Source: Planoprotostelium fungivorum (taxonomy: Eukaryota > Evosea > Variosea > Cavosteliida > Cavosteliaceae). Taken from it: a DNA stretch of 46,041 nucleotides. Location of the stretch: contig MDYQ01000220.1 in the NCBI GenBank assembly GCA_003024175.1, positions 1-46,041 of the forward strand, read 5' to 3'. A program made the position numbers and the translations under genes. The notes beneath the pieces are model-generated. The model did no database searches. It worked only from the letters and a program-made list of their open reading frames with translations, and was not told the origin of the DNA. Shown piece after piece: positions 620 through 41,528 of this stretch (positions within the stretch are counted from its first letter, which is position 1; each line of letters starts with the position of its first letter).

Positions 620-3227
620 TCAGCTCCAGGAGTGGGGTTTCAGGAGAGTGTGTGATAATCTATGAAGGTGTTGAACGGTAGAGAGAGCACCGTGACAGAG
701 GAGCATATCAGTCATCTCTTGGTATCCCTTCTGGGCCAAAATGATCAACGGCGTACTTCCAAACGGCTGTGACCGTGAGAAAGAAATCAATTGTAGCCTC
801 ACCTTGTTGTCATGAACGTTTGCACCCTGCAGAGGGGAGGTGGTTGTTGTATACGGCAAGCATGAGGGTAAAGAATGGAATATTTGTTCAAATCCCTGAA
901 TTGTTTCATTATGCCCTCCCTCATTGTCTTGTACCAGAGATGTATTTCTATTCCTTTGGTGTTTGCTTCCTCTCAACAGTGAGGAGCTGACAGCCAAATA
1001 TTCAGAGAAAATCTTTGAAATCATGTCTTTGTCGTGTTGTTGAGTGATGACCTTGCCTGAAGCTACTCCATCAGGCCACCGAATATCTTTTGTGTTGAGA
1101 AAGTAGGGATATTTAGCTTCACCCTCCTTCCCACTGTAGTCAAAGTCTATTATGTAGACAAAACAGTCCTGTCAAAAATGAATGAGACAACCCTTTCCTC
1201 AGTTTCACCTGTTGTCTAACCAGTATATTGCACAGACGAAGATCTCCATGGACAAATCCTCTCTCATGCATTCCGTTGATAGCTTTGTTGACACTCTCCT
1301 TAACTACAGCACGTTTCTCTTCAGGGACTTCAGTTGGAGTGACACCAGCCACATAATCCATGATAACATACGTCCATCCAAATAATTGCTGTGTCGATCA
1401 ATCATTTGACATGATGGCCTCGTACCTTAATAACTGCTCTGATCTGAGGAGAAAAGGGCGTGCATGACATGTGTGCTTCTGTGTTGTAGGCACAGGTGAC
1501 CTTGACAACAACATCCTCCTCTGTAATACCCAATTTTGCCCTGAATACCAGAGATTTCCCAATACGGTGCTGATATGTCAGAGGTGTCTCCTGGCCATCT
1601 AACTCAACAACACAAAGAAAAGGGAATCCATCAATAGGGCGGCATTCTGTCTCATCTCTATACAATCTGTTCAATGAATATATGGCTTCCCTAGATGACA
1701 ATAATGAGCCCCTCAAGTGACGTAAAAAAATCACCTCAGTACACAGATTGTCATTTGGTACATACAACAGATTGATTGAATAGTAAGGATCAATTATGGG
1801 TCCATCATCTGTGAAAACTGCACCAAATATGACCATCTCTTGTTGTGTAAAACTGATTAAGAGGCAGGGACAGGCTGATCTACCATAGCTCTTCTTTGTT
1901 GTACTCTCTATATAGAACTGGTAATAGTACCCGCAGTTCTGAAGAAAAGCTTCACCTCCAGAGGTTGTTTTGACTTCTCTGTGTCCACATGAGGAATTGT
2001 GTGCTATAGTAAGGACCTGCGAGACAAGTTTACGCCCCTCCAATTCGATGCTTTACATCATGTCTCCTGCTTGTCTCGTAGCGTCTCGCTAGACAATTAC
2101 CCCTTATTTGTTGGACGAGACGCTGCGAGACATCAGCAAGACACATTACCAAGGGGCAAACAAAAGGGGCGTAATCTTGTCTTGCAGGTCCTTATGCTAT
2201 AGTAACTGCTTACATGGACAATGACACATATTCAGGTCCACCAAGAGTAAGATCTGTCTCCCATTTCACCTGCAATTTGTTATTTCCATTTATGTTGATC
2301 AGTGATGTTGTGACATACCAATCCTTGTCCTTTTCTTGTTGTGAGGGTCCATCCCAAAGAGGATTCAGATGCCCACTGCTGAATCTCTTCCCTCAACTTT
2401 TTCTCCTCTTTCCACTGTTGGGAAACTGCAATCATGAGGTCAAATGCATCCTGGCAGTCCTCTTGAGTGGGGGAGACTTGATCAATTGACATGAACTGGT
2501 GAAATGCTCTCTCCAAAGTTGGATCGACAATGGAAGAGTGGCAGTGATCTGGTTCATCTCTCAGGTGATTCAATACCTCTTTTGGTGTAGCCTTGGGGTC
2601 TTTACTTATGCCTGAGGGGGATTCTCTATTCTTTTGCAGTATATTTCGGATGTCATCCCTCTTTGTACCTGATGGAATTGAATATTTAATTGGATGAAAC
2701 ATGTAACCTGGTTCTGCAGCGTCTTTTGTCTCTCCCGTTTTCATTTTTTGCATCAATTGTAGGAGTTGATCATATTTTTGCTGAAGTTCAGGATCTGTTG
2801 ATCAATTCAGTCTGATATTTGCGAAGCCAGAAATCTTTGAGTTGCAAGACGCAGCCAAAACGACACTCTGGGCCGCCGCTATGCGAGCTAGAGCCTGAGA
2901 GGCCCGTAGAGCCCCATAGAGGCCCTGGAGACACTGCGACGAGAATAAAGACAATATAAAGAGAATAAAGAAGGGTCAAGGCTCACCAGCGGGGTTGGTC
3001 TGAGCAGGAGGAGGGACTATGGCGTCTCTGAGGCCCTCCCAGTCAGCGTCGGTGTTGGCTTGGGCAGCGGCATACCACACATCGATAGTGGCGTCCTCGA
3101 CAGTGGTGTCAGTGAGGATTCTAGGTGCTGCCTTCCCACGGAATGTGATGTCGTAACCGTTGGTACGGTGCTGTTGAATCAGACCATTGAGGAGACCTCG
3201 GTTGGGGTGGGTGGCGGTGTAAGGCAT
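620..3227 (-). CDS. Modular family member A: header, kinase-like domain (CR-effector type), ankyrin tail; carries a MITE
   Basis: The first coding exon (2987-3227) is a header of about 80 residues beginning MPYTATHPN and ending in PAG with a phase-1 donor. A 192-nt intron (2795-2986) leads to ...DPELQQKYDQL, and the same frame continues through a Q/K/E-rich stretch. After the MITE at 2010-2194 come GEAFLQNCGYYYQFYI, then VVVKVT (possible kinase Lys strand), then MDYVAGVTPTE, then the catalytic loop FVHGDLRLCNILV; after an intron, VYIIDFDYSGKEGEAKYP. HGDLR...N and IDFD match the kinase-like half of CR effectors, in which DFG is replaced by DFD. The tail (FGSTPLIILAQKGYQEM...LLCHGA) is one ankyrin unit. 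A TAA codon lies in frame beside the MITE, so the gene is either rescued by splicing or a pseudogene. The stop position is uncertain. Confidence 0.6.
2010..2194. mobile_element. Non-autonomous DNA transposon (MITE), 185 bp, with 8-bp target duplication
   Basis: The ends are inverted (TAAGGACCTGC / GCAGGTCCTTA, with similarity continuing for about 28 bp), and the element is flanked on both sides by TGCTATAG (2002-2009 and 2195-2202). The interior holds further inverted segments (around 2072-2092 against 2113-2135), so the whole can fold back. An 8-bp duplication fits the hAT superfamily, but no transposase is present. It lies inside member A. The end sequence contains CTTGTCTCGCAG/G in the gene's orientation, which looks like a 3' splice site. 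Confidence 0.85.
2883..2987 (-). repeat. Conserved intron block after the header of member A
   Basis: About 105 bp nearly identical to 11230-11334 in member B, covering the phase-1 donor, a pyrimidine-rich run and a conserved core (key segment GGGCCTCTCAGGCTCTAGCT on the minus strand). A diverged version of the core follows the header of member C at 39645-39705. It lies inside an intron that is three to four times longer than the local norm. Confidence 0.8.
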
Positions 3228-3790
3228 CTGAAAAATATCAGTCAGCATCTAGAAGATGATGTGACGCCGACGTCTCGAGAGGTTGAGGGGCCAATGTCTG
3301 AGCGTATGAAATTACCTTGAGACTGTTCGAGGTGGCGATGATCGGCGAGAAGATACGGACGAGATCTGATGTGACGGTCAGAGAATGTAATCATACACAT
3401 TATTACCTTGTGGATGGCTTGAATTGTGGCCCACGGCGAATGGACGGGAACGATATGGACTTAAAACCTGAAATGAACGTCAGAAAAGACAAAGAGGAAC
3501 CGACGTTGGGTCGGGCGTGTTGTTACCTAGAGGAATGCTCGATGGGTCTTCTTCGAACGGACAGTGGAATATGGACCCAAGATCTGGAATAGTGTCGGAA
3601 TGAGAAAGATATGAGCCGACGTTGGCGTGGCGACGTTACCTGTGGACGCTCGAGACGAAGTCTAAGAAGATACGGCCGATACGGACCGAAGATCTGAAAA
3701 GAAATAAGTCAGATTTAAGACAGACCAGACGATGAAAGAGAGACGGCGATGATACAATAAGATGTCTACGAACGTCTACCTGTGCGTGGT
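3228..3790 (-). repeat. Leader of member A: serial mini-exons and introns upstream of the ATG
   Basis: On the minus strand the region reads as at least four short exons (about 50-61 nt), each ending before gtaa, separated by introns of about 40-105 nt that end in cag or ttag. The exons resemble each other (ATCTTCGGTCCGTATC, ATCTTGGGTCCATATT and so on), as if made by serial duplication of one exon-intron unit. The last intron ends directly at the header ATG (3225-3227). At least one exon ends in an in-frame TAG in the frame I tried, so this is probably untranslated. The same leader is found at 11560-11900 and 38990-39382. Confidence 0.7.
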
Positions 3791-3899
3791 CTTTGGAAAG
3801 TGAAAACGTTCGAGCGGTTATACTATGATATCTTTTTGCGATATCTCGATAAATATCGAAGCGAAAATTTCCACAAAACAGCCCAGCCAGCCCTGACAC

Positions 3900-4500
3900 C
3901 CTGGCACTTTGTGTCTCAACTTGTATTTGTTATACAATGCTGTGATTGTCACCAACACTGTTCAAAGCAGGCTCAAGATGTCTGTAAAATGTTGTTATAG
4001 TCTGTACAGGTAATAGAGAGGTGTGGGAGGTGTGCACAAAGCATGTTGAGCAGATGTAAAGGGAAACACAAAGCACACAATAAAGCTTGCCTCACCACTT
4101 TGTGGTTCAGCAAGCAAGCAGGTGGTGTGTAGAGATTTCCACTAGTCTGCATAAAGCATGCTCTGGGCACACAAAAGCTTATAAACCATTGTCTAATTAT
4201 TTGTTATAGTCTAATAATTTAAAAGTTGTGGGTAGAAAGCATGTTCTTAGTAGATGACAACAGAAACACCACACTCAAGGCCCACCCACATGCCCTCATT
4301 AGCCTCTGCCTCTGTGAGGCAAAGGCTACTATCTTTTAGTATGCAGTGATTTCTACCCAGTCTGTATAAGCATGCTCTGGGCACACAAAAGCTTACAAAT
4401 GTTTTGCAAAGAATTTACAAACTGATCACAGGAAGCAAGCATTCAGTATGTGGTGAGTTGTAGATAAATGCACTATAATACCCTCTTTTTATATGATGTC
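3900..4500. repeat. Dispersed-repeat patch without genes
   Basis: No convincing coding sequence. Segment 4290-4486 is repeated at 12196-12394 at roughly 90 percent identity by eye. Segment about 4148-4215 (containing AGCATGCTCTGGGCACACAA) recurs at 4370-4395 and, inverted, at about 6040-6110. These are probably pieces of one abundant non-coding repeat family. Confidence 0.7.
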
Positions 4501-4504
4501 GAGC

Positions 4505-4643
4505 AAGTGATTTGGTTTTTCTGGTTGGTGTCCATGCATTTGGATCACTAATTTTTTTGTCGGGCATATCTCAGTAGTCGGGAGAGAAGTGATCACTTCT
4601 CAATGCACCATTTGACTACCAACCGGAAAAACCGAATCAAGTG
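4505..4643. repeat. Foldback element, about 140 bp
   Basis: Arms at 4505-4530 and 4617-4643 are inverted copies of about 26 bp with a few mismatches (core GGTTTTTCTGGTTGGT against ACCAACCGGAAAAACC). The perfect palindrome AGAAGTGATCACTTCT lies at 4586-4601. No clean target duplication is seen. It overlaps the 3' end of the next coding region. Confidence 0.6.
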
Positions 4644-5483
4644 ACCATTTGAATGATACTGTATGGCCCAATTGTCCAATATACCATTGACATAGGACAG
4701 AACATGAGCCGGTTCGTCTACCACGGGTGGTGGATCTCTTCTCGTCATCAATTCAAATTGGGCTGAGAGCTCCTCCATTGTCTGTAACAACCTTCGATTC
4801 CCCTTCTTACAAATGTGATCCATGATCTCTGTCCAATCGATGTCTTCCGGACTCATCAATTTCTCTGATTCAGTATTGCCGCAGTGTGAACAGTGTCTGA
4901 ATTCGATAGCACACATACCAGGTGCCTCATCTGACCACATCACTCGTCGTCTCCTCCTTGTGTGCTGGCACACACCTTGAGAGGAAACATTACAGCTCGA
5001 CTTCCACTTGAAGCCGTCACTGCTTCCCGAAGGTAGAAAAGCTCCTTGATACACGTAGCAATAGACGCTGTTCGTGTCGGCCAAGAATTTCTCTGTGATG
5101 ATTCAGTTGTATGAAGGGAAATCGCTTCAGCTGGTAATCTCTGTCTCTCTCTCAATGTGCATTGTGGATGATCTCTGGCGTAGAGGATCAAGTCCTCCAC
5201 AAAGATCTCCCATTGACGTTTCGTCCAGCTCCTGTCTACACAAGGAGACAGTGGAGGGCTTAGGTAGCTTGATGAACAGGGGCTAAACGGGATGGACACA
5301 GGGCTTGATAGAGGAAGAACGTCACCGGTGAGGATAGCATTGGAGGCATTGTAAAAAGAGGTCGGTTGCGCAGGTGCATCTTTAAGACTTTAATCATTTA
5401 AGAAAATGATGCTGATGTGACTCACTGCGTTTAGCACGCTTCGCAGTTACCACAACATATCGCTTGTCGGAAAGTTGGACCAT
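4593..5483 (-). CDS. Hypothetical multi-exon protein
   Basis: I do not recognise it. A possible start (ATG at 5481-5483) gives MVQLSDKRYVVVTAKRAKR, then a 46-nt intron beginning gtgagtcac, then a Ser/Pro-rich stretch (APAQPTSFYNASNAILTGD) and WTKRQWEIFVEDLILYARDHP. A later exon carries CAIEFRHCSHCGNTESEKL, a short Cys/His cluster that might bind zinc, and ends in FFRLVVKWCIEK. The frame must change between the middle and last parts, so an intron is missing from my model or the gene is damaged. A further exon (MSKACELLSDILVDER, start near 5724) may belong upstream. The setting among repeats suggests an element-borne or decaying gene. Confidence 0.35.
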
Positions 5484-5740
5484 TCTCAATCTGATGGTTG
5501 ATTAGATCTCAAGAGGGTCCATTCGGCTCACTTTGTGTCAATGATATTGATCCGATGTCCTCAATGTGGCTTCTGAGGTGCCCCCCATTGTACCCACTCG
5601 ATCTACTGTCATCCAAAACTCGGACTGTGTGCTGCTTTCATGTGAGCAATCTGTTGGATCTCACACACTTCACGTACCTCTCATCCACCAAGATATCTGA
5701 CAGCAGCTCGCACGCCTTGGACATTGTGATGCGGTGTATG

Positions 5741-5806
5741 GTCACCACATAAGAACCAAACAGTTCAATGAGTCTCTGTTTATAAAGAATAATTTCAAAC
5801 CAAAGA
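5741..5806 (-). repeat. Right arm of the 66-bp inverted repeat
   Basis: Reverse complement of 1-66 with about two mismatches, spanning ACCACATAAGAACCAAACAG. The frame reading through it on the minus strand joins unrelated sequence on its two sides. Confidence 0.85.
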
Positions 5807-6382
5807 AAGCCAAGGTGTTCCTTTTCAATGAACATGCATTGAATGTGTTTCTTGGTTGCTGAGTTTTCACTGACTTTTCTCCGAGTTTTCCAATTAGTTG
5901 ATGATGTCAAATGTTGGGCACAACAGGTGCAGCTCTTCCAAGCAGCGTATGACCACTGTGGCCCTGTCGTCTGCCTTCAATATCTGGAAGGCTGTCTGTT
6001 GTCATCTGCTAAGAACATGCTTTCTACACACATCTTTATTAGACTATGACAAATAATTAAACAATGATTTATGAGCTTTTGTGTGCCCAGAGCATGCTTT
6101 TGCGCAGATTGTGCGCTCTGTGTTTCTCTTTGTATCTACTCTGTGCATGCTTTGTGCACATCCTTCACTTACCTTCACAGACTATATTAATATTTTATAA
6201 GTATTTGCAAGCTTTTATGCACTAAGAGCACATTTTATGCAGTCTTGTAGCAAATCACTGCACATCTCTTATCAGCTGGCTGAACCTGAAAGGTGAAGCA
6301 AGCTATATCATGTGCCTCGTGTTTCCTTAGAGGCTGCTATAGAGTATGCCTAAAATGCACTAAAGGCCAGTTTCTAGCAAAT
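5807..6382. other. Non-coding repeat-derived stretch
   Basis: No supportable gene. It holds an inverted copy of the 4148-4215 repeat near 6040-6110 and further degenerate pieces containing GTGTGCCCAGAGCATGC and similar words. Confidence 0.55.
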
Positions 6383-7304
6383 CTATTGATGTTCCAACTT
6401 TTCTTTATATGCTCTGATTACTATCATCTGCTTTGTGATAAATTTGTCTCTTTGTTCTAATGTCTTATATGAGGCACAGCTCTCCTCTAGCTGAAGCTCT
6501 AAAGACATTATTGTCTTGCTTGTACATTCTACTTGTACCTTTTTGATTTCTGCTGCAGACTCTTTCTCTTTCTCTTCTAGCAATTCTTGTAACCTTTCCT
6601 CATATCTCTTATTGTTCATTTTCATACATTGTTTCTTGTTGTTGTATGTTGTTAGTTCCCTCTCAAATAGTCCTTTGAGATTCTCTGATTCTTCATTCAG
6701 CTCACACTTCTTGCCTCTAATCTTTGTATTCTGTATCCTGTGTTTTAAGCAGTCCACAATGCTTTGTGGAAGCTGACTGACTATATCATTGTATGCAAAG
6801 TTCCACCATTGAGTCATATTAAAATGTAGTAATTAGGTAAATATAGTAATTTTGCTAGGTCCATCACCTGTATCCTCTGCAGCTTTACCTAAACTGCTTC
6901 TTAGGTTTATTCATCAACCAACTTACCTGTTTACTCTGTTGCTGTCTAGTAAGATCATTAGCTTTTGTATTTGCTGCCAGATACTTGTTGTATGCTTGTT
7001 GCATCATTCCATGATTCTGATCCAGAATTGCTTGAAACTGCTCATTATCAGCTAACGTCTTTTTGACTGCAGGAAGACTGACCTTTCCTGTCTGCTGTCT
7101 TACTTGCTCATTGAGGCTGCTGAAATTAGGGAAGCCAATGAGCTCAATTATGTTATCTCTTGTTAAATAGTTAAGGAGCTTACTGACTGGTAACTCATCA
7201 AATGCTTTTGGTTCAGTCCTCTTGACTGGAAATGTCTTAACAAGATCATAGTCCAATTCAAAAGGCAGGAAAGACAGCCGGAAAGGTGAATATACCAATG
7301 GCAC
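6383..7304 (-). CDS. Coiled-coil protein, copy 2, with an upstream exon
   Basis: The downstream part (6383-6817, MTQWWNFAYNDIVSQLPQS...) is the fuller paralogue of 46-399 and continues into LEESCASYKTLEQRDKF, giving about 140 mostly helical residues. The upstream part (6885-7304) encodes VYSPFRLSFLPFELDYDLV, then DELPVSKLLNYLTRDNIIEL and a Gln/Asn-rich helix. Whether the two parts form one spliced gene is unproven: a donor-like gtaaagctgc follows the upstream part, but the downstream part also has its own ATG. No known domain. The neighbours are Polinton-like integrase and polymerase remnants, so it may be element cargo. Confidence 0.5.
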
Positions 7305-7417
7305 GATGACCTAACACCGGAGAACAGAGACAGCAAGATCAATACAAACAACTGTTGGATATCAAGTTGAGACAAGATGTCTCTCAAGTTTATATGTCAA
7401 TGTGATCCAAGATTATT

Positions 7418-7699
7418 ATGCAGGGTGAACAAAGAGGAGAGCTTTGCACTCAATATAAACTGAGCTATTTAAACCTGAAAATTATTCTGAGAGATGAACA
7501 TAGCTTCAAGATATCCCCATCTGATATTGCTGACATTAAGTTGAGGCTGCAAAACAAATCAACAACTAAAAAAGAAATTATGGGTCTATATAAAATTAAC
7601 TACAGGACATTAAATCACTTACTCTCTGAACACTCTATTGCTTATGGAGTTGCCAATGATAGTATTTCCTGTGATACACCACTCCTGATGCTGCTTTAA
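7418..7699 (+). CDS. Small protein with helix-turn-helix-like segment
   Basis: A 93-codon frame. Residues ~35-65 (SPSDIADIKLRLQNKSTTKK, then EIMGLYKINYRTLNHLLSEH) have the spacing of a resolvase or Hin-type helix-turn-helix: a helix, a turn at N-K-S-T, and a recognition helix around YKINYRTLNHLL. It overlaps the 3' end of the opposing integrase piece by about 65 bases. It may be the DNA-binding part of a recombinase gene or a regulator of the surrounding element. Confidence 0.4.
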   Translation: MQGEQRGELCTQYKLSYLNLKIILRDEHSFKISPSDIADIKLRLQNKSTTKKEIMGLYKINYRTLNHLLSEHSIAYGVANDSISCDTPLLMLL

Positions 7700-8267
7700 C
7701 CCAATAAAAGATGAACTTACCATCTATGATATTTTTTGTGACTGTATATACTTCACTAGACCAATTTGATACTGTTGATTTTGTTTTTGCTGAAAGTCTC
7801 CTCTGCTGCTCAGGTGCAATAAATGGAGTGATATGTGCTTGTATTCTTACTTTGTCTCCTCTAGCATAATGTAGAGTCTCAGGAATGATTGGGTTATTTT
7901 TGTCATTCAGATATTTATAATAATTATGCAACTGAGGTATCAGTAGCAGTTTATGTAATGATGTATCTGCAAAATGGACATTTGCTGGCAATTCCCTGAT
8001 AGTATGATGATAAGAATGGTTATAATTCTCTGTAATAAACTCTAAGGCATCAATATACCACTGTGTTTATATACTGAAAGATACTGATTGATGAGATAAA
8101 AAACTTCTGATATCATCAACTGAGAATTCTAGTTTAAAGACATTTTGTCTGCTAGCACTTCTATATAATCCTTCAATAGAGTTAGATGTAGTAGAAGGAT
8201 CTAACCATATGCTGAGAAGATATTCAGTCAAACTAGGTACAATTTTTTGTCTTTTCTCTCTGTGCAT
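7635..8267 (-). pseudogene. Polinton/Maverick-type integrase, broken
   Basis: Two minus-strand frames carry the two ends of the family. 8067-8267 gives LTEYLLSIWLDPSTTSNSIE and GLYRSASRQNVFKLEFSVDD, like the N-terminal region before the catalytic core (family pattern: L..YL..W.DP.....S...LYR). 7635-7991 gives YARGDKVRIQ, NWSSEVYTV and FYWVKAASGVVYHRKYYHWQL, matching the C-terminal SH3-like module that ends in 'FY..EL'. The central RNase H-like core with its D,D-35-E residues is missing between them, so this is a deletion derivative. It is divergent from the polymerase remnant, about 145 bp away. Confidence 0.6.
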
Positions 8268-8411
8268 ATTCTCTATAAATCACTTTCTATTTCTATATAA
8301 ATGAATATTACTAGTATTGAATAAATTACATTTTTAAAAAAGATCATCAGTTATATATTACAAATTGACAATCCAACATGCCAACTGAAACCTTTTTACT
8401 TTAAGATAGAA

Positions 8412-9931
8412 TTGAACTGCACATTAGTTAACATTGAGGATGGAACAACTATAGAGAAGACATACTTGTTCCCTGCAGATCATGCCATCAAAATATCATC
8501 TATCAAACACATCAGTGATCTCAACAACACTCTACAATTGTGGATACAAAATTCTTTTGCTGCTGATGATGCTGTACCTGACACTAAACACAGAGTACAT
8601 GAATTCATTGCTTTCAAACTTAAGCTAGCTAAATCTCAGCAAGGTGGATGCAAAGGATATACAGTGGATTTGGGTCTTAAAAACAAAAGGTGTCTGAAGA
8701 ATCCTGATCTCAAAGACAACCTCTGCTTTTGGAGAAGTATTGCAATTGCTTTGTATGAGTCTTCTTATCAACATATTGGTAAAAAAGACAGCAAAATACA
8801 GGGAAAAAGCTATTGATTTAAGGGATCAATATTTTGCACAATGTGGTCAAATCATCTTAGATCATGTACAAGTAGCCGATCTCCCTGTTATCTGTCAATC
8901 ACTCAATCTAGATCTAACAGTTTACACTTTAGATGATAATCTAAACAGTCTGAAGTTATATGAATCAGGCTACAGAAAGACAAATGTAATATGAAGAGTG
9001 CAAACCAATGGAGCTACTCCTCCATCAGTGGTGGAGGAGAATCTCAGAGCTTCCCTGGGCCCCACATGTAGGATCATCAATCTTATCATGGAGTAAGGTA
9101 TTAATGTTAGACTTTGTGTATAATTGTTTGTACCAGCATTATGACAAAACAGAGGTGGACCTCCTGTATACAGACACAGATAGCATATACATGCAGGCTA
9201 AAGTATCCAGCTATGAAGAATTCAAACAGAGATTCCCTGATCATTTACAAAAGCTCCATTTTGCTGCAGCAGGTGATATAACACCAGGAAAGATGAAGCT
9301 GGAATGTGAGCTGAAAGAAGCTGTCTTTGTAAAGCCTAAGACATATAGTTATGTGAAGAAGGATGGCAAAGAGGATGTTAGAAATAAAGGAGTGGTGTTA
9401 AGCCAGAACAAAGAGATATTAATATTTGACAGTTATAAGAGAGCAATATTCTCAGATGATCTGATCATGGTAAAGAACACTCTGATTAGAAAGACAATAC
9501 ATAATGATGCACTCTCCATGAATACAATGACAGTAGACAAAGCAGCTTTAGATGGATGGTATGATAAGAGAATAATGATAGACAACATCCACACTGTACC
9601 TTTTGGGTTGTACAGCAAACAGTTCAGTGAAGAGGATGTGATGAACAGGATAATGAAGAACTTGGCAGCCAGAGTGAATATTGGACTAGGACAGCTCAAG
9701 ACATACCTTCTGTGCACTCAGAATCAGCTAAAGACACACCTGGCATCTCAATTTCATTCTGGCATGTCACAGATGAATTATGGTGTACTGTGGAACCTTG
9801 ACCACTGTGTGCCTGTATCATTTGCCAGAGATAACCTAAAGGCTCTATGTCATTACTCTAATATTCAACCTATGCTGGTCACAGAGAACAGTAGCAAATG
9901 TGCAGATCTTGGTCTTCCAAAGGGAATGTGA
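8412..9931 (+). pseudogene. Polinton-like protein-primed DNA polymerase B, internally deleted, with HNH-like tail
   Basis: The N-terminal part (8412-8816, then 8740-8994 in another frame) holds KDNLCFWRSIAIALYES and DLPVICQSLNLDLTVYTLDD, resembling the N-terminal 'CFFRCLA' region of Polinton polymerases. The C-terminal part (9008-9931) has motif C YTDTDSIYMQ and KPKTYSYVKKDGK, the K-x-Y segment of the thumb. The exonuclease domain and palm motifs A and B expected between them are absent, and there is a frame change near 8800 and a stop at 8992, so the gene cannot make an active polymerase. The last ~70 residues (NYGVLWNLDHCVPVSFARDN, CHYSNIQPM, N-SK) look like an HNH/His-Me nuclease module. 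The target of that nuclease is unknown. Confidence 0.75.
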
Positions 9932-10141
9932 TATAACAATATAAATAGTGAATAATGTTACATATTTTTTTAGTTGTTGGTCTTGTATTGTCACTTGTTC
10001 AGTTTTCCAAAAAAAATGGCAAGATCATCAGCCACATTATCTACATCTACAACTTGGTGTCTCTGCACAGTTGATTGATTTCCTTGCCAAGGTACTGGCA
10101 ATCTGGCTCCTATTGTTGCAAGCAGACTCAAGGAACATAGG

Positions 10142-10760: not shown

Positions 10761-10795
10761 CACAACATCTCGCTCAAAACACAACAGCAGTCCTC

Positions 10796-11559
10796 TTAAC
10801 TAAATACATAATACTGTTTGTTATGAATGTACGTTGCCGTCCCAATCACTCCCAAAACTACGCCGACTGCGAAGGACACGGCGATCAAGCCTGCAGGCAG
10901 GAATGCTACTATTTTCTCGTAGGTTGATCTGTTTGCCCGTGTAGCAACTTGGTCGGTTCTCTGACTGAGAAGTGGTATGCTCGTCTCTGTTCCCGCCCCG
11001 GGCTCTCTGGTCTTTGGGATCTGGCTTCATTCAATTGGATTGTGTTTCAACCAATAACAAATACCTTCTATGACCCGATTGAGAGTCTCTCTTAATTCAT
11101 CTATCTGTCTCTGCTCATTTGAAACTGTTAATTTCATTCGGTAATTTAGATAATAGAAAATCACATTATTTTCCTCTGGTAAAAAACACACAACAGAGTC
11201 AGCCAAAAACCCCTCTCAGCCGCTTATACGCGAGCTAGAGCCTGAGAGGCCCGTAGAGCCCCATAGAGGCCCTGGAGACACCGCGACGAGAATATAGAGA
11301 ATAAAAAGAGAATAAAGAAGGGTCGACACTCACCGGCTGTTGCAGCTCCTTGGGCGGCGGAGCTCCCGTCAACGTAGTAGGTTCCTGCAGCAACGGTAGA
11401 GGGGTCCCCAGCATCGCAACGACATGCGGCATCGAAAGAGACGGTAAGTGTGCTGGCTACAAGTTCAAATTTGGACGCGAGAACACTGGTGACTGCGGGA
11501 GCGAGGAACTGATATTCGCTTGTGGCATCTCCATTCTTGGCGCGGTAAATCCACAACAT
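10796..11559 (-). CDS. Modular family member B: alternative header, coiled coil and membrane helix
   Basis: The header exon (11334-11559) begins MLWIYRAKNGDATSEYQF and ends AATAG with a phase-1 donor, as in A and C, although its sequence differs. A 158-nt intron (11176-11333) carries the conserved block. Splicing to 11175 gives, in frame, ENNVIFYYLNYRMKLTVSNE followed by QRQIDELRETLNRVIE, a short coiled coil. After a further intron one frame gives TDQVATRANRSTYEK and a strongly hydrophobic run, IVAFLPAGLIAVSFAVGVVL, then GVIGTATYIHNKQYYVFS and a stop. This reads as a tail-anchor-like membrane helix, but the acceptor that sets this frame is weak. No catalytic domain is visible. Confidence 0.5.
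11230..11334 (-). repeat. Conserved intron block after the header of member B
   Basis: Near-identical partner of 2883-2987, beginning at the phase-1 donor of the header exon. A possible reading frame through the core (CLQGLYGALRASQALAR) exists here, but the equivalent frame is not kept in A or C. Confidence 0.8.
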
Positions 11560-11900
11560 TTTGAGTTGTTCGACAAAAGAAGATGTTTAGGGTAGACGAG
11601 AAGATAGAAACCGTCAGAAAAGATGAAGATGAACCGACATTGGGTCGGGCGTGTTGTTACCTTGAGAAATGGCTCGAAGGATCTTCTTCAAATGGAATAC
11701 AGACTAGGACCTGGAACAGAGTCAAAATGAGACATTTAAACCGACGTTCAGAGAGGCGTTGTTACCTGTGGACGCTCGAGACGAAGTCTAAGAAGATACG
11801 GCGCGATACGGACCGAAGATCTGAAAAGAAATAAGTCAGATTGGACATGGTTCAATACGATGAAAGAGAGACGGCGATGATTCGATAAGACGTCTTACCG
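11560..11900 (-). repeat. Leader of member B
   Basis: Homologous to 3470-3790 and, more weakly, to 38990-39382. Two mini-exons are visible with donors gtaacaacgcc and gtaacaacacg. Both introns carry a motif close to ACGTCGGTT about 15-20 nt after the donor. The header ATG follows without a further obvious intron. Confidence 0.65.
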
Positions 11901-11943
11901 AATCACCTTCAAACACACAAGCCAACACACCTCACAGCTCATT

Positions 11944-12096
11944 ATGTCTGGAAAGAACACCAAGCCCACTACAATCACACCCAAACCTACAAACTTCAAA
12001 CGCAGGGCAAGGACGTCTTGGTTGGGGTGGCGGAGCATCTACTGTCAACGTTGGCAGGTCTGGCTACGGCGGTTGTTGGTTAAACTCCACAACTGA
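11944..12096 (+). CDS. Small basic ORF, doubtful
   Basis: A 50-codon frame beginning MSGKNTKPTTITPKPTNFKR, basic and Trp-rich at the end. An overlapping frame is Gly-rich (GRLGWGGGASTVNVGRSGYG) and runs to a stop at about 12160, so a spliced form is also possible. No homology recognised and no neighbour suggests a role. Confidence 0.2.
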   Translation: MSGKNTKPTTITPKPTNFKRRARTSWLGWRSIYCQRWQVWLRRLLVKLHN

Positions 12097-12195
12097 CACA
12101 GCATCTTTAACTGTTGTCATTACATAAACATAATTAAATTTGATGTTGATCTTTATACAAATTTACCCACTCACATATAGTAGCCTGCCTCACAG

Positions 12196-31403: not shown

Positions 31404-31470
31404 CGATCTGCAGCTGTGTGTCCTGATGTGATCTGTTGACGAATTACAACCGGTAAAACAGCATTTTAAA
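31404..31470. promoter_or_regulatory. Divergent promoter interval between CPSF3-like and ATG1
   Basis: 67 bp between the two starts, containing ACCGGTAAAACAGCATTTTA; no TATA box clear enough to call. Both genes probably share it. Confidence 0.4.
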
Positions 31471-34071
31471 ATGGAATTTCCTCTCCTTCAAATTCGCTTG
31501 GGCCATTTCGCGATGTTTGATCCCACACGACCTTTCGAAGTTGGCCCTTATTATACTCCTAGTGGAAAAGAATCTCTACTCGGACGAGGTTCTTTCGCTA
31601 ATGTGTATAGAGGAAAGAATAGACGTCCGCAATCTGGAAGAGACAAGAGCGGTCGTTCATCTATCTCTGTGGATAATGTGAGTGCACGATCAAGCATCGT
31701 AACTCATCTGTTGCAGACGCCCGAAGTAGATGATGTCGCCATCAAAGTAATAGATATCGATAGACTTACGAGAGGAAATGAGAAGCACAGACAACACCTT
31801 GATTCTGAGATATCCATCATGAAAGGATTGGTACACCCGAACATCGTAAAGTTATACGACGTATATACGGTTTGTACATCCTCCGAAAACACGATTGATG
31901 AAAGCTCACAGATGTCCGACTCCCACATGGTCATGGTCTTTGAATACTGTGCAGGTGGGGATCTATCCAAGTACATCATGAAACATGGCAAACTTCCAGA
32001 GAGTCGAGCTCAGTATTTCATGAAGCAATTGGGTGAGTGTATATAAATTCAATAACTAACACCCTGCAGCCTCTGCTCTTCGGTTCCTTCGGTGAATGGA
32101 TGTGGATGTTGATGTTTCTAACGATCACACAGCGGAAAGAATATCATACACCGAGACTTGAAGGTGTGGTTGATGAATCGAAGGGACTGATCATATGACA
32201 GCCACAAAACTTGCTGCTCAGTGCGAGAGATGAGAGTGCATCCATCAAGATTGCCGATTTTGGCTTTGCCAGGTGTTCATTGTTCTATCATCTCTTCCGT
32301 ACTGTGCGATCGATTCGATATCTGATTCAATCAGATTTATAGAACCACAATCAGTCGCAGATACACTGTGTGGGTCACCACTGTACATGGTGACGTCCTT
32401 TTCGCCATAGTCGATGTTTCTGAACAACTCTACAGGCCCCAGAGATTCTGCACATGCAAAAGTACACAGTGAAAGCAGATTTGTGGTCTGTAGGGATGAT
32501 TCTGTATGAGATGTTGGCTGGTGTTCCCCCATTCAAGGCCAACTCCCATGTCGAGTTGATGCGAATGATCGAGAAGCAGGTGAGATGAAAGAAATATTGC
32601 AACTGAGTACACAGGTCATCTCTTTTCCGTCTAGTATAAAAGCGATCGTGTCATCCGAGTGCCAGAATCTGATGCATTCACTGCTCCAAAAAGATCCCAT
32701 GCAGAGGATCTCTTGGGAAGAGTTCTTCCTTCATCCCTGGGTATCCCTGCATACCTTCATAGATGTCCCAACTCCCTCTCCTTACAAGGGTTCGTCACTG
32801 CCATCACATCTGTCACACTCACATCAAACAGTTTCGGCCCCCATCAGCATAGGCTCACTCCCAAACGCAACCATTCCCAAAACAGAGGGAAGAAGTTCAG
32901 TTCCAAATTCATTGGATTCACAAGGTGCTTCATCCCTGTGAGTGAGTGTTGAATCGAACAGGCAACTACGAAGTTCGAGGGCACAGCTACTCCCAACCAG
33001 CAATGTACGAGAGGGAGTCCATCCGATCTCGCACCAGTGAGTAGGAATAGAAGAAAAGAAGGTGATTGACACAGGGCCATCACCACCCCAATTGGGGGAG
33101 GAGTATGTACAGAATAATAGGTCACGAAGGAATTCGATGAGTAATCGAGATGTACAGTACCCACCCATCAATCTTTATCCGTTGGGATATCCCAGCAGCA
33201 ATTCAAATCCACCGGATCACTATCACGATTTGTTTTCATCCAAGTCCAAGAGGAGAGATGAGGTGCTTTTCATGTAACGCAAGATACGAACCACCTCTCG
33301 TAGTATCGTAGCATCTGATCCATTGCAGAAGAATGACTCTATGACGTTCGTATCATTGTTGCAACCGCAAGCAAAGGCAGAGGAGGTGAAGAAGGGGGAG
33401 GGAGAGGAACTGATGGTAGTAGACACTGACATACCATCAATTGGATCAAAGGGGAAGGAGGACATTCTCAGTGTTGTCGCTGGCAGATCTGAAGATGGAG
33501 GGATGTCAATATTCTGAAGCGTACGTACTGTACATCAAAGCACTCCACCTGCTGCGCTCCATTTGTCTATCAGCCTACCAAATCCACAGCAATCCGTCTG
33601 GCTCTCTCCCTGACCGAAACGGTTGGTTCAGCAATTCTAGAGGAATTCTGATTCTCAGCAGTGCTTGTTATTGACATCAATCGATACCGGGAGGTGTTTG
33701 CCGAGTACATCAAGAAGGTGGACTATATGAAGCAGAACATTCGGCACTCAGATACGAGTCCACCACCCGAAGTACTTTTGTATCAGTTTGCGGCTCATCT
33801 AGTGAGTGCTTCGTGGGTTTGAAGACTGAGATGTACAGGGGAGAGAGGGAGCAGTATCAGAGGCTTTGCATAAGTACGATAAGGCCAAGAAACTGTACCA
33901 GAATGGATTGGTCATCTTGGAGCTTCTCCTGTCTGAATCTCAGATGGAAGGGGACGCCATCATCCTGCAGAACTGTGAGCTGAGGTCTTTAACATCGATT
34001 CATCTGTAACAGTTATCACGGCCTTCAATCAAAGATTGCAGTCATGTAACCTCGAGGCCTCAGGCAAATGA
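31471..34071 (+). CDS. ATG1: ATG1/ULK-type serine/threonine kinase with C-terminal MIT-like region
   Basis: Autophagy-initiating kinase. Glycine loop [13 protein letters not shown]; an insertion of about 40 residues rich in Arg and Ser; [11 protein letters not shown] with the ATP-binding Lys; [87 protein letters not shown]; and [16 protein letters not shown]. All catalytic residues are present. A Ser/Pro-rich linker follows, then helical pairs ([55 protein letters not shown]) typical of the tandem MIT region of ATG1 that binds ATG13. It ends CNLEASGK. Start is the first ATG; a second lies at about 31513. Confidence 0.88.
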
Positions 34072-34179
34072 AGAGGTTGTTGAGACAAGTCTATCGATTT
34101 ATGTGTGGGCGTGTTGTTTTCGGGGTTGTCAGCTGTCACTATTGAGAACCCTTTTGTTTTGTCTCTCCCGAATTCGAGC

Positions 34180-37100
34180 ATGTTGGTCTCTCAACAGCGC
34201 CTAGTATGGATACTTCTATTCATTGGGGGTTCTTTATCTTCAGACACACTCTCCTTTAGACAGGTGGTTACTGAGGGCCCTCGGATGCTGATGATTTATG
34301 CGACCGATAGTGGGGACTCATGTACTTATCAAATTGTAAGTCATATCATTCGTAATATCGACTGAAGTATTCCAGTATAAGCAACCGACTGTTCTTGGCA
34401 GTCAGCCCACCCTCGAGCATTCGAATGTGATACAACCCCCTTATCCGAACACATACTGCGTTATCCCTTCAGTCTCGTGTTCTTTTTCGAATTGTATGGT
34501 TACCACTTCCTGGTTAGACAAGAACGAATCGAACACAAATCCCCCCAACACGACTGTCATTACGTTCGACATCACAACCCCTCAATCCTATAGGGTTCAG
34601 AATCTCATCTCCATATCTCTCACCCAGCAGATGGTGGTCATTCCTGGGAAAGCAGAGGTGAGTCTATCCTAGAACCGAACTGACATTCATCAGAAGAATG
34701 GAATACAATGTTACTCTATTGATTGGGAGCGGTGCCAGATCTTGCCCCTTTACTTTGGTTCAAGTGGGATGCTCTACACCTGGGCTGATCCCTTCACACC
34801 CAGCACTTGTACTCAAGATGCCAGGTGGAGTCTCAACACGGCGTCCAGAGAGTTGTACGTCTCCTTTGGTACGACGCGTGTGGTGATCGATATCGATGAC
34901 TCCTCGATGGCGGAGGAGAGCCAACCCTTTACCATGTGAGCAGAATAAGACGATGATAGCTAAAATAGAAAGGTCTATCCTAGCCTATCGTTGGGGTAAT
35001 TCCGACTATCTGCTGCTCGGTATGTCGAAAGGCTTGGGAGTTGTCTACGAGAGAGTTCTGAAGGCCAATGAATATAAATTGGCTAACTTTCTTATCACTC
35101 CAACGAAATTCGATGGTGACTTGGACATGACGTATTTGGACCAAGGGCGAGGCATGGGTGAGTTCTTATGATTCAATTTCCTCGTCGACTTATCTGCGAT
35201 CAGTTTATGCACACCAAAGTGCCTTGGGGTGTGGTTAACGATGAAGATGTACTCTGAGCACACACAGATACACAGCCAGAATGAGTATCAATGGAAGTGT
35301 GGACACGTACTATTTTGAGGACGAGCCCGGGGCAGCTATGTCGTTCAACCCCCTTACTTGGAGAATGGGATTTGTTGGTGTAGATAGCACAAAGAACAAT
35401 CTCCTATACTGGGAGGTCGAACCATACGGTGCGTCATCTTGATGCATTCCAATAACATGGAGCAGATTGCCATCACAAGACGGAGTGCTTTATGTGTCTT
35501 TCTGATCCATACTGGTGACACCTCATCATGTGATGTCTCTTCAACAGAGTGTTGAAGACGTCACAGTGGATGGAATGTAGAAGAGTCAGTGTGCAGCAGC
35601 AGGAACAATATAACCACAATGACCAACGGAGACCAATGTCCTGTCATAACAGCATTAGTGCCACCTTTGGGAGCATTACAAGCACCGATCAACATCACTT
35701 TGAACACCAAGAATATGCCCGACGTTGGCAGTCGCAACTGGAGCTGCGTGCTGGAGTGGTCCAACCACGTACAGTCCTACGTAGCGGTACATAATGACGA
35801 CCTCACACAGTTTTATTGTGTAGGAAATCAAACCTTTATCACCGCCACGGATGTGAGGGTGTACCTCAGTACTGGGTCCATGCACACTTCTTCTTCTCTA
35901 TACGGGTATGATGAACATCATTATTCGCAACACTGAATGGCTTCGAGTCTCAGGTCGTGTGCGAAATCAGCCTCATCATCGTCAGAGTGCATCAGTGAGA
36001 ATGAGTTACTGATTGAGTGGTGTAATGGAGTGATAGGACTTCCCAAGCCAGCATTTTCAAACTGTGGATGGTGCAACGATCTCAATAGATGCACTTACAT
36101 GGGGGAATGCAGCAACACGACATGGATGAACGACGACGAACCAACCGTTAGTATCAAGGCCTCAAGAATGTATTATCAGTCACCAAGTATCACACTGAGT
36201 GGTTATCGATTGTGGCCGGATTCATACATCGCAACGATTCAGAGCACAGCAGTGAAAAGGGACTCTCAAGACACATACAATGCCACATATCAGAGTGACG
36301 GTTCTCTTCTGATTTCAGTGCCTGGAACGAAATCGATCGACAATACTGTGTGGACGATCAATGTATACCGATCAGGTATATCCATCTCTCTCCCACTCTT
36401 GACTCTTTGTAGAAGTACCGATCACAATATCCGGAGCGAACACGATTTCATTCTACGGTGAGTGATCTGTGAGGAATTTGAATGAAAGAATTCAGATTGT
36501 AACAAGCGTACGTGCGAGCAGTGCATCACTGACGATGCACCGAATTGTATGTGGTGTGACGGCTCATGTAAACACGTACCATCCAACACCTCCAGCACCA
36601 ACCAATGCCTCGCTTCGTGCCGTATGTGTTTAGTTATCATATGCATACACCTATATACATATGCGTCCATCTGGTTGACATGAAATAGCTTCGGTGGAAG
36701 TAGTGCGAACAGCAGAGTCGAGGAAGAACTTGATCATCCTGGTTTCCGTTCTGGGGCCTCTCCTCCTCATCGCCGTTGCTGTCACTATCATCGTCATCCT
36801 ACGTAAGCGTAACAGTAATCCGTACCGTTACACGACTGTGAGTTGGGGTTTCTTTCGTAGGAACTGAATATGCTCTTAGATAAAGCAAAACATGCCTCCC
36901 CCACCCAACTTCTACATGCCCAACATGGGCGTTGACTCTGTCTCGCACTACAATGTACCTAAATCCCTTATTGGTGGTCTCTTTAACATGGAGAACATCA
37001 TCTTGTCCAACCATGCAATTCATGCCTCCTTGGCTCATGTGACATCACACGAGTAGGAAATGAGTATTGAAAGAATTCAGATTGCAAAGAGAGATGTGGA

Positions 37101-38355
37101 TTCATTCGGAAGATATCTGATGGTGTTGGCTTTAGCTAGGAACCCAATCACTGCGATGGAACTGCTATTACATCACATTGATTTAGAATTGGCCACCTCT
37201 AGTGAGCCAAATAATCCATCACCTATTCATTCTTCATAGCTGAAGCAACTCTCTTCCGAATCAACTCTGTAGCTACGTCCATGTTCAACACATTTGCAAA
37301 GGTGATAACCGCAAGGATGTTGTGTCTTTCTTAAATACATCCAGGTTGTGGGGACTGAATATTTATGGGAAGCCCTGTCAGCTGCTGTCTGGGAGATATC
37401 CAACGTAGTGCAGACAGACAATCTGGATGGTGATTCTACTCTACTTGGTACTATGGAGGTATTGTCACTATCGCGTATGTGAATCTGATACAATCAAAAG
37501 GTTGATCCAGACAAATTGATGGACGATGAGCTGGATGAGTTGACAGCAAATAGTTACCAATTACTGATGGTAGCATCAAAGGTCTTCAATAAGATCACCA
37601 AAACAGTACCAAAGATGTCTGTGTGAGTGATGTGATGACTAATAGTATTTTTGGCTGATCCTACTTTCAGGTTGATGAGATCGGTCATCATGAACATCAG
37701 GAACAAAATAGCGTCTAAATATCCAGCATCAGAGAGAAAGGGTGTTGGTGCATTTTTATTCTTGAGATACATAGTACCCTCTATAACCAATCCCACTGCT
37801 TATGGCCTGGTTGTCAATGGTGGGTTACACACCCACCTAGCTCAATCATAATGACGTCTACAGCCCCATTGTGTACACATTCAGCAAGAGTTCTGATGAT
37901 GTTATCAAGAGGTGAACGAATACGATGTTTGGGTCGATCTGACACGTGTCTAGTTCTGCAGAATCTTGCAAACGAAACCTTACCAGGACTAAAGAATTCT
38001 CACCTTAAAAAGCTGGATCAATTCGTTTTGGAAAACACATCCAAGCTACACAGATTTTATGATGAAATAGTGGTGAGTATTGTTGACTGTTCTGTTTGAT
38101 TAAACGAAAAAATAGTCTATACGATCCGACACTGTGAGAAAAAAGACGAACGGATTGACAATCACCATATCCCCATCTGCTCATGAGAATGCTGTTTCTT
38201 GGATTCACAATTACCTCTTGAAGAACAAAGATCACTTGAACACTCCTGAATTATACGTGAGGCAGTACTCAATTCGTAACATATTAAATATTCATTAGCT
38301 ACTCTCACAAAGCCTACTCCCAGAAGAAGTTGTCCGAAAAAATGACAGAATATGA
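34180..38355 (+). CDS. Plexin-like receptor: signal peptide, IPT and PSI modules, transmembrane helix, cytoplasmic RasGAP
   Basis: The signal peptide is MLVSQQRLVWILLFIGGSLS. The N-terminal ~400 residues are unassigned extracellular sequence. Then an IPT-like start (CPVITALVPPLGALQAPINI), a PSI-like Cys cluster (CGWCNDLNRCTYMGEC), another IPT-like segment (SIKASRMYYQSPSITLSGYR) and a second PSI-like cluster (TCEQC, PNCMWCDGSCK). The membrane helix is LIILVSVLGPLLLIAVAVTI followed by RKRNSNPYR. A 42-nt phase-0 intron (37039-37080) removes an in-frame TAG and joins the tail to the GAP domain: TLFRINSVATSMF with the arginine finger, ERKGVGAFLFLRYIVPSITN, FSKSSDDVIKR and LKKLDQFVLENTSKL. The C-terminus (about 38288-38355) is uncertain. 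Confidence 0.8.
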
Positions 38356-38989
38356 GGATAAAACAAGAGTGCACGTAGACCAATTAAGTGCATTTGGTCG
38401 TCATTGTGCTGATTGATAGGCGTTGATAGCGCGCGCTGATTCTTGGGGGCACGGGCTGCACCTGTGTCTTTTCTGTGCTCTTGGTGATTCTCGCTTATTT
38501 GGGTCGATAAAGGTAAAAGGTATGAAAACGAACCCGCTGGACAATACAAAAATGAACTGGGAAAAACTCGAAGAAACTAGTGCTACTCGGCTCAATATCT
38601 TATCTTAAATCCCGTTCGTGTCGAATATTGAGAACTTCTCTGCGGCAGCGCCCCGCATGGGAGAGGTAATTTGACTTATCTTGCTGGCGTGGGAATTCAT
38701 GAGAGATGGACGTTGACGGTACTGTGAAACAGCTTTGCGGTGAGCAGTTTGAATTGGATATCTTTAATTGCTGCTCGACGAGAGTAAGTGGTGGGACTGT
38801 CCGTCAGAATGCAGGCCACCCTGAGGTCAGATTTGTCACTCAACTCTAAATCTAAATCATTCTCCGCCAGGGCTTTTATTTTTGTTTTCGACATCCGCGA
38901 ACTGCGCTTTGCGACTGTCATCTGATCTCGTAAGCTTCAATTTCCAGAGACCCTGGTCACGCACAGGTAGACGCTCGACCAAATCGTCA
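38356..38989. other. Interval without a confident gene
   Basis: Past the receptor stop an alternative frame (KAYSQKKLSEKMTEYEDKTR) reaches a TGA at 38414-38416 and could be an alternative last exon. The rest shows no homology, no conserved splice pattern and no RNA gene I can recognise. Confidence 0.5.
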
Positions 38990-39382
38990 CCGCTCTTCGG
39001 CAACGCCGGTCCATGTTTATTATGAACTATTTCTTTTCAGGTCTTCAATCCGTCTCGTGCGCCGTATCTTTATAAACTTCGTTTCGAGTGTCATAAAAGG
39101 TCACAACAACTTGCCTACGTCGGTTCTCTCACACATTTCTGACCCCATTCTAGTTCTTGGGTCCGTATTGTCTACTGCCCCTTTCTCTAGGTAACAAGTG
39201 AAAATTATACAACCGCATCTGTCTCATTTTCTGACTCCATAACAGATCTCGTCCTTTCATCCCTCATCGAGCATTACCACTTCTGACAGTCTCAAAGCTA
39301 AAATCATACGCTTGGACCGAACACTTGGTCTCTCTGTCTTCGGGTTGGTTCATGTTCCGAATTTTCTGACTTTCACTTCAGG
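38990..39382 (+). repeat. Leader of member C
   Basis: The plus-strand counterpart of the leaders of A and B: mini-exons CCGTATCTTTATAAACTTCG, TTCTTGGGTCCGTATTG and ATCTCGTCCTTTC, with introns containing CCTACGTCGGTTCTC and ending in ctag or acag. The last intron-like segment ends in cttcagg just before the header ATG at 39383, as in A. In C the final donor appears changed (AAAGCTAAAATC where A has AAGGTAATTTC). Confidence 0.65.
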
Positions 39383-41528
39383 ATGCCTTACACCGCCAAT
39401 CACCCCAATAGAGCTGCCCTGCTCAGCTTAGTCCAACAACACAGACAGAACGGATACAACTCAGCATTTCGTGGAAAGGCATCAACCAGGATTCTGAGTG
39501 ATACCACTGTTGAAGACGACGAAATCGATTCCTGGTATGCAGATGCACGAGCAGCCAACGCACAACCTCCACCAAACAACGTAGACGAGCTATGGATAGA
39601 TCTGAGGGACGCCATAATTCTCCCTGCTCCTGCTCCTTCAGCCGGTGAGTCTCAAATCTCTTTGCGGTGCCTCTTGGCTCTACGGCCTTTCAGGCTTCAG
39701 CTCTCATAGCGGCGACCTTGAGGGGTCGATTTGGCTGTGTCAAGATGTTGTGGCTTCAAGTCCTATATAGTGTCATTTTTAGTGCTGACACCATTAGGTG
39801 TAGACGATTCTGTACAACGAAAAGCCACATGGATTACCCCAATCAACTCAATTATTCCTATACATCATGGCAATGATTTAGAAAGTTTACCAACGATATC
39901 ATCCTTACAAGGATTGATCGGATACCTACAGAGTTCTCCAGCTCCTATTCCTCTGAATCTACAAGATTGGGACGACGTCACTGATTTGCTGCAGGATAAC
40001 AACGTTCGAAACCGTTTTTTCATACATGCTTCACCAAGTGGAGTCCACTCTCATCAAGCATTCAACGATCTTTGGAGGATGTCCATCACTGCCAGACCAT
40101 GCTCTGGAACTGAGGACTCTTGGCACGCTCGTTGGGATGGACCAATATCTACTGTGTGCATGTACTTTGGATACACTTGGAACAGAAATACTTGTAATAG
40201 TACATCTACAGGGAGGAATCGGTGAGTTGTCATGATTGAAGATCTATAGTGACAGCAGCAGACCAGACTATGTGATATACTATCGAGATCAAGCCCTAGC
40301 AAGAGGAGAGGAAAAACCAAGTTCAAACTTCAGTAGTTGCAATCCTCAAGATGAGCTAGTTGAGAAATTAAACTGGAATTATCATGGTGAGAGATATAAA
40401 GATCATTGTTGTTTATATCATACATACATATGGATAATTGTCCTGAGCCACACAGGCCTCCCCTATCTTTATGGATGGTCTGCTGTAGGGGACAATATAC
40501 ATGTATATGCCATCACCCACAGCAAAGGAAAGAATCATCGTCACAGCCTGTTCAACCTGGACATTGCTCATGCTGCTGATCGCCTAAAGCTGGCAAATAT
40601 TGTGAGGAATATGCTTCGATCACTACAAGCATTAGTAGACACCATCAGTAACCCCAAAGAAACATTACTCCTCACATTAGAACGACCTGGTGAGATATGC
40701 AATTTGTATTAAATTGAACTTATACACAGATTTTCGAGAGGTTATCATTGATACTATCAACAATAGAGTGGTAAAAAAATGGAAAGAACACAGCTCTTTT
40801 GATGAGCAGAAGGCTAAGGAGCTTTCTCAGGTCAGTTCAGTCTAATGAATGTAAATTTTGATTGATTTAGAAACTATGGACAATCTATGAACTTATCTCA
40901 AAGAAAAGCATACCCTTCACAGACCAACGCTATAGGCAGAGAACTGCATTAGTTCAATGGGAATGGGTCCAAAAGACTGCTGGCAACTACCTTTGCACCA
41001 TGACAGCACCTATTGGAGAGCCAATATCTCTACCTTTGAGTGATGCTGAACTCAAGAAAGCCCTCATCTGCATCCTGACTGCCTTGTCTGAATTACACAA
41101 GTACAAGGTTGTACACAGAGATATCAGGTATGATGGCAGTGTAAATGTCCATTAAATGGGGCAGGTGGCCCAATGTCATCTATCATCAAAGCACTCAGAG
41201 TTACCTACTCATTGACTTTGAGGATGCTTTCTACTGCCCTCCTTCAAAGGTGTCAACCAAATCAAAGAAGCTGAAGAAGCCAAAAGAAACCTCCCCAATG
41301 ATGCCTTTAAGGCCTCTTGGGCAATCAGGTGGATCTCATGCACCTGAGGTGAACACAATGCCATGCCAACCTGGTGTGGATATATGGGCAGTTGGCAGAT
41401 TAATAGCTTTGAATGGAACACCTGTGCCATTCCAGCATATTTGCATTCATGCCAGCAATATAGATATCACACAGCGTCCAACAGCCCAAGACCTACTTAC
41501 TCAGCTGCAAGAAATTCAAATCTCATAA
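39383..41528 (+). CDS. Modular family member C: header, PD-(D/E)XK nuclease-like domain, protein kinase domain (CR-effector type)
   Basis: Six exons (39383-39644, 39798-40221, 40250-40689, 40730-40830, 40871-41127, 41165-41528) sum to 1848 nt and give 615 residues without a break. Residues 1-87 are the header MPYTANHPNRAALLSLVQQH..., homologous to member A. Residues ~90-390 resemble the restriction-endonuclease-like domain of CR effectors: SWHARWDGPI, then RDSSRPDYVIYYRDQALARG followed by EEK, giving P-D...E-x-K, then LPYLYGWSAVGDNIHVYAIT. The kinase follows: HKYKVVHRDIRWPNVI catalytic loop, LLIDFEDAFYCPP in place of DFG, VDIWAVGRLI, and TQRPTAQDLLTQLQ. This is the only intact member. The cell target is unknown. 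Confidence 0.85.

Follow-up and report, generated by a model that had tools for sequence, protein, structure and literature searches.

Probable reassortment of headers and modules at a shared intron block in Crinkler-type effector genes of the amoeba Planoprotostelium fungivorum

Introduction

How can genes on one contig share their front parts and the position of an exon junction, and carry quite different domains behind it? This question is raised by contig MDYQ01000220.1 of Planoprotostelium fungivorum (assembly GCA_003024175.1), which was analysed over its entire 46,041 bp (contig C170, called the window below) and holds three such genes, loci A, B and C. In each of them a leader precedes a header exon with a phase-1 donor; a conserved intron block of about 110-135 nt comes next, and a module stands last. 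We conclude that the three genes are probably part of a large Crinkler-type (CR) effector gene family, in which headers and modules were reassorted by recombination in the shared intron block. The family belongs to the CR effectors in the broad sense, not to the oomycete family defined by PF20147. Unusual in it are the intronic exchange block and the many kinds of header.

P. fungivorum is a variosean amoeba, which we take to be one organism with P. aurantium var. fungivorum, and its eukaryotic assembly has 36.9 Mb in 471 contigs. A fungus-eating habit is described for P. aurantium var. fungivorum in PMC7251208.

The family in the genome

The original prediction described a family of three genes with a constant leader, a constant header and interchangeable modules, and proposed searching the assembly for the same phase-1 junction before different domains. 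This search was positive. Header type H1, common to A and C, has 18 places in the genome and type H2, the header of B, has six. DNA of the A leader, header and intron had at least 77 genome matches (40 of 121 candidates scored), and the A intron alone had at least 41 (40 of 92 candidates scored). The 35-nt core of the block had 48 matches at three mismatches or fewer, and the reversed pattern had none, so these matches do not arise by chance. The fetched loci contained 58 block copies, from which those lacking a recognisable donor were dropped (seven); with C added by hand this gave 52 junctions, two of which belong to one gene, C261. The header type was assignable in 48 of the 52 junctions. 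There were 17 types in 11 groups, or 12 groups when a header found later on contig C154 is included, so the header is not constant as had been claimed. H2 and H2v were grouped from reading of the alignment at 30-33% identity, with no BLAST match below E 1. Outside P. fungivorum only one JGI protein matched the header sequences, in a search which omitted H6v, H14 and H15 and whose sensitivity was limited to shared short words.

An open frame of at least 55 codons upstream of the donor was found in phase 1 at 43 of the 52 junctions, in phase 0 at four and in phase 2 at three. An earlier phase count by header type (45 of 48) was partly circular because most header types had first been read in the phase-1 frame, and it is superseded by this open-frame control. 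Because header and module meet in an intron, in almost every case in phase 1, the products of an exchange can stay in frame.

Exchange of headers and modules

Many combinations of header and module occur in the family; the similarity of one locus to another sets in shortly before the block and ends inside it or a short way past it. Among the 923 pairs from different header groups, median identity was 0.818 in the block, measured in all 923; it was 0.592 in the header (841 pairs) and 0.583 behind the block (853 pairs), with the shuffled control at 0.60. Header and post-block identity between header groups are at the shuffled level, and the block is well above it. The leader was also common to 332 of the 740 different-group pairs with known header starts, and only four of 405 leader matches reached more than 20 nt past the ATG.

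For counting reassortment, sequences were cut at every N, the second C261 donor was removed, and only junctions with 100 nt or more of sequence upstream and 300 nt or more downstream were kept, which left 45 junctions and 990 pairs. The header alone was shared in 127 pairs, the module alone in 11, both in none and neither in 852. All 11 module matches begin between -26 and -3 of the donor, and the header matches which enter the block (n=107) stop between +5 and +168. Six of the 11 shared-module pairs connect unrelated header groups. For example, C333 (H9) and C74 (H7) do not match upstream, whereas from -21/-27 onward they agree in 96.6% of 1,051 aligned columns. Earlier pair counts (31 and 10) depended on cut-offs for match start and end and were replaced by this cut-off-free recount. 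The proposed swapping by recombination in the intron is supported by these borders, which lie at or inside the block. The modules are interchangeable as had been predicted, and the headers are exchanged too.

Public models, which are predictions and not transcripts, also had common modules behind unrelated headers: P0002 and P0012 (82% over 284 aa), P0026 and P0011 (78% over 219), P0013 and P0017 (70.5% over 407). The same was found for HNH proteins, namely P0004 with P0022 (89% over 119) and P0004 with P0019 (97% over 66). Public models and fetched DNA together place the HNH module behind H1, H4, H7, H13 and more distantly H2, and the trypsin-like module behind H7, H9 and more distantly H1. 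H3 and H1 precede a P0015-like protein, in which an HEIGGH motif is seen by eye. H4 and a degenerate H1 copy precede a P0018-like protein; P0018 has a weak AAA match, under the Pfam cut-off. A single paralogue of the C module was found in the rest of the genome; it lies on C154, aligns in two pieces with 42% and 35% identity, and is in a region where leader and block matches were known beforehand. There, 621 bp of DNA (C154:29840-30460, L093) include the end of a leader, an open header of 82 residues, a phase-1 donor and the block. This header is a new type with no match to the other 17, and header and phase were found only after the paralogue lookup.

It could be asked whether these genes exchanged anything. 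In the case of one family without swapping, selection would have driven the coding parts apart until no likeness was left, and leader and intron would have been homogenised; a pattern of non-coding parts more conserved than coding ones is indeed known from Hessian fly genes (PMC2955719). However, some modules behind unrelated headers are up to 99% identical, some headers before unrelated modules are up to 97% identical, and the predicted header folds differ, with a beta-grasp for H2 and four helices for H1. We consider this explanation very unlikely.

Enough downstream DNA was available for 16 H1 junctions, from 15 genes because C261 counts twice, and they lead into 16 distinct downstream DNA clusters. 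This would also fit a mobile 5' cassette of leader, header and block, copied before many genes, where only the front moves and family members exchange nothing with each other. A Mutator-like transposase lies near locus C (42720-44204), and several family members are located on contigs of 10-60 kb, which fits as well. But in the 11 N-free pairs one module is shared by genes with different headers and the similarity begins at the block, and leaders are common to different header groups. Shared modules and shared leaders across header groups mean that pieces are also exchanged within the family, and a cassette of which only the front moves is unlikely.

Assembly quality

Exchange between genes could be imitated by the assembly. 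Similar sequence was found on both flanks at 15 of 19 single-N joins in the fetched DNA, compared with two of 261 random points, and single Ns in this assembly thus usually have similar duplicated flanks, a sign of faulty scaffold joins. An N lies between -250 and +500 of the donor at eight of the 52 junctions. These numbers would suit an assembler that was led by the repeated block to join headers and modules of different genes. However, the 127 header-only and 11 module-only pairs, with none sharing both, were obtained from the 45 junctions that remain after cutting at N, and the block copies differ from locus to locus. Moreover, a separate JGI protein, P0028, has the H9 header (100% over 62 residues) in the same reading frame as another module, without intron; the sequence may come from a transcript. 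Its module shows a P-loop-like motif by eye and no Pfam match. Chimeras as the general explanation are therefore quite improbable.

Tandem header arrays, previously taken as a real feature, are largely withdrawn, with a single N between or inside the copies at C83, C115, C142, C156, C287 and C316. C99 and C261 are N-free, but have one recognised header each. Two headers in one protein occur in public models P0006, P0008 and P0022, of which P0006 comes from a suspect N region and the other two are on contigs not fetched. The picture of C115 and C354 as a "deletion product" is weakened because an N separates the two C115 headers.

Several points weigh against reassorted effector genes as the explanation. 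The assembly has gaps, and with 15 of the 19 single-N joins flanked by similar sequence, some chimeras are likely. Decayed copies exist: the header has a stop in four of the 48 assigned junctions (two of the four from C261), and seven of the 58 block copies have no recognisable donor. Among the 11 shared-module pairs, two fall inside merged groups (H2/H2v, H3/H6) and three include C17, a locus without a recognised header. The splices from header to module are predicted gene models, and some public models treat part of the block as exon. In addition, the PF20147 N-terminal domain was not found among the 32 proteins scanned with Pfam, none of which carries H6v, H12, H14 or H15.

The conserved intron block

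The core of the block folds at -38.5 kcal/mol (z -3.09), with none of 200 shuffles as good, and a GSSSHSGG-like linker is read from the block in several public models, including that of C. The block might then be mainly an RNA element, either a hairpin around a 3' splice site or a Gly/Ser linker exon, which is selected for splicing, so that recombination is incidental to its conservation. But covariation does not support this, with 10 double changes against 156 broken cells of 1,019 (42 of the 52 copies tested), and the longer block reaches only z -1.20. The linker frame also lacks conservation: the acceptor CTCTCAG is present in 36 of the 52 junctions, and the header frame closes within 6-23 codons in 29 of these 36. 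Neither covariation nor frame supports a role of the block as structured RNA or coding linker, and we give this explanation quite a small probability.

A CACGTG palindrome lies downstream of the block, at +110 to +220, in eight of the 52 junctions, compared with 16 of 685 other downstream windows, and may be a remnant of a longer shared block.

Loci A, B and C

The features of the three loci in the window are as follows.

3228..3830, minus strand: A leader, probably 5' untranslated region (UTR) with several tiny exons, from blastn against other leaders genome-wide
2987..3227, minus strand: A header exon, type H1, four-helix model, phase-1 end
2850..2986, minus strand: A conserved intron block, directly behind the donor
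620..2794, minus strand: A module exons, a nuclease-like stretch (by eye only) and then a kinase, from splice model and Pfam; last exons uncertain
2004..2202, minus strand: palindromic insert inside the third intron of A, resembling a miniature inverted-repeat transposable element, 71% over 205 nt, from self-blastn
11560..11930, minus strand: B leader, from similarity to other leaders
11334..11559, minus strand: B header exon, type H2, predicted ubiquitin-like fold, phase-1 end
11200..11333, minus strand: B conserved intron block, from block similarity
10796..11191, minus strand: B module, coiled-coil/membrane-helix stretch according to the original prediction; exon borders uncertain
38930..39382, plus strand: C leader, from similarity to other leaders
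39383..39644, plus strand: C header exon, type H1, phase-1 end
39645..39797, plus strand: C header-to-module intron, holding a shortened block copy
39798..41528, plus strand: C module exons, Crinkler-type nuclease-like part (RPD...RGEEK, by eye) and kinase

The claim of a common leader holds, with 82% identity over 294 nt between A and B and 68% over 249 nt between A and C. The A leader is probably 5' UTR; coding is argued against because one leader exon differs in length by one base between A and B. Small leader exons in 3228-3830 (minus) and 38930-39382 (plus) look alike by eye, with ATCTTxGGTCCxTAT-like starts, as if the 5' UTR had arisen from exon duplication. The header exons, of 241 nt (A), 226 nt (B) and 262 nt (C), all start with ATG, have 3n+1 nucleotides and end in phase 1 at GTGAG, as had been described. 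The headers of A and C are 65% identical, whereas B has a different type. The start of the intron behind the header is similar between A and B (87% over 139 nt) and between A and C (82% over 67 nt). This intron was said to be unusually long and has in fact 192 nt in A and 153 nt in C, while the other introns have 28-69 nt, except the third intron of A with 235 nt, which contains the palindromic insert.

The splice model of C is a single open frame of 592 codons in seven exons. Its protein is 96% identical over full length to the P. fungivorum public model P0001, "Crinkler (CRN) family protein". By use of an internal acceptor the public model gains 15 residues from the intron block, and in the kinase part it is 11 residues short. 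The splice model of A is open over 649 residues, with one non-canonical donor (GG) near the end, so the last exons of A are uncertain. The module stretch of B is covered by eye by public model P0007, which extends further downstream and gave no match in the Pfam scan.

Two copies of a lysine- and glutamate-rich open reading frame (ORF), 83% identical, lie beside loci A and B at 46-399 and 6383-6817 on the minus strand. The ORF at 9008-9931 (plus strand) resembles a family B DNA polymerase by eye (YTDTDSI) and may belong to a Polinton-like element; Pfam gave no match for it at E 0.01. TTTAGGG telomere repeats close the window at 45971-46041, about 4.4 kb from the end of locus C. Close to this telomere, the transposase at 42720-44204 is on the minus strand (PF20700, E 1.2e-51) and is partly duplicated across a single N at 44097, around which 577 bp are duplicated and which is one of the suspect joins.

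Module domains and header folds

Above the Pfam cut-off, the scan of the 32 proteins gave Pkinase in C, P0009, P0010 and P0027, HNH_2 in P0004, P0006, P0014 and P0019, and Trypsin_2 in P0026. Many of the scanned proteins had no Pfam module. For locus A, a kinase with ankyrin repeats had been predicted. The kinase stands, with Kdo and RIO1 above the Pfam cut-off and Pkinase below it, and the ankyrin part does not, at 15 of the 21.1 bits needed. For locus C the kinase of the predicted nuclease-like and kinase module is equally confirmed. No Pfam family of nucleases matches the C module, and the nuclease label would follow from the RPD...RGEEK motif and from homology with the fungal (Diversispora) protein P0005, which has the Crinkler domain PF20147. 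P0001 and P0005 match at E 3e-24 over the nuclease-kinase part, with RPD...RGEEK and the kinase motifs conserved.

The H2 header of B is predicted to have a ubiquitin-like, beta-grasp fold and the H1 header of A and C to have four helices. Profile comparison of H1 and H2 with P0005 gave nothing. A genome search for the PF20147/LxLFLAK N-terminus gave 0 matches, and its search controls were equally silent.

Comparison with known effectors

Crinkler-type effectors were first studied in plant pathogens. In the broad sense, CR effectors are reportedly the Crinkler-RHS-type effectors of Zhang et al. 2016, and nuclease, kinase, HNH and peptidase modules belong to their repertoire. PMC5289972 and PMC6131194 describe them as modular, with an enzymatic C-terminus and with headers that are ubiquitin-like or of an unrelated alpha-helical kind. 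The amoeba family agrees in three respects: its gene models have an N-terminal header and then a separate enzymatic C-terminal domain, the C-terminal domains are of the CR repertoire and homologous to a Crinkler-domain protein, and the headers are predicted to be ubiquitin-like or alpha-helical. Likeness to Crinklers, suggested in the original prediction as a similar logic with a header of unrecognised kind, thus goes beyond analogy. The amoeba family differs in having about 12 header groups in one genome, a conserved intron block as the border between header and module, and a shared leader.

In oomycete Crinklers (CRN) one N-terminus is found with different C-termini and one C-terminus with different N-termini, and the break is at the border of header and module, at the HVLVVVP recombination site, according to PMC3726527. 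Recombination at the border of header and module is likewise indicated here by the N-free pair counts. However, the CRN border is a coding motif behind one header family, whereas the amoeba border is intronic, in phase 1 and behind many kinds of header, and the 32 scanned proteins gave no PF20147 match. Genes for small secreted salivary gland proteins of the Hessian fly have a conserved UTR and intron with diverse coding parts, for which PMC2955719 reports positive selection and homogenisation. Unlike these, the amoeba family exchanges whole different domains. Among the open-access papers searched, we found none joining Protostelium with Crinkler, or Crinkler with intron recombination and domain shuffling.

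Proposed mechanism and significance

We suggest that headers would be joined to modules by ectopic recombination or gene conversion, acting in the block and in the leader alike. The header might determine the destination or the binding partner of the protein, and the module would be the active enzyme, a nuclease, kinase or protease. The products may act in conflicts with prey or parasites, with mobile DNA or with other amoebae. Self-recognition, also proposed originally, has no specific support. The block could further be a dedicated exchange site between separate pools of headers and toxin modules, in repeated and perhaps regulated or life-cycle-staged use, as a combinatorial generator of effectors, which we regard as rather unlikely.

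A large CR set is present here in a free-living predator of fungi. Its headers and modules are joined at an intron block whose phase is nearly constant, which allows exchanges to preserve the reading frame. Such a set gives a simple and testable model of how modular toxins are reassembled, in a non-pathogenic organism in which this reassembly can be studied. The roughly 12 header groups in one genome provide material for working out the roles of headers. The family of P. fungivorum suggests how toxin-like genes with interchangeable halves get reshuffled.

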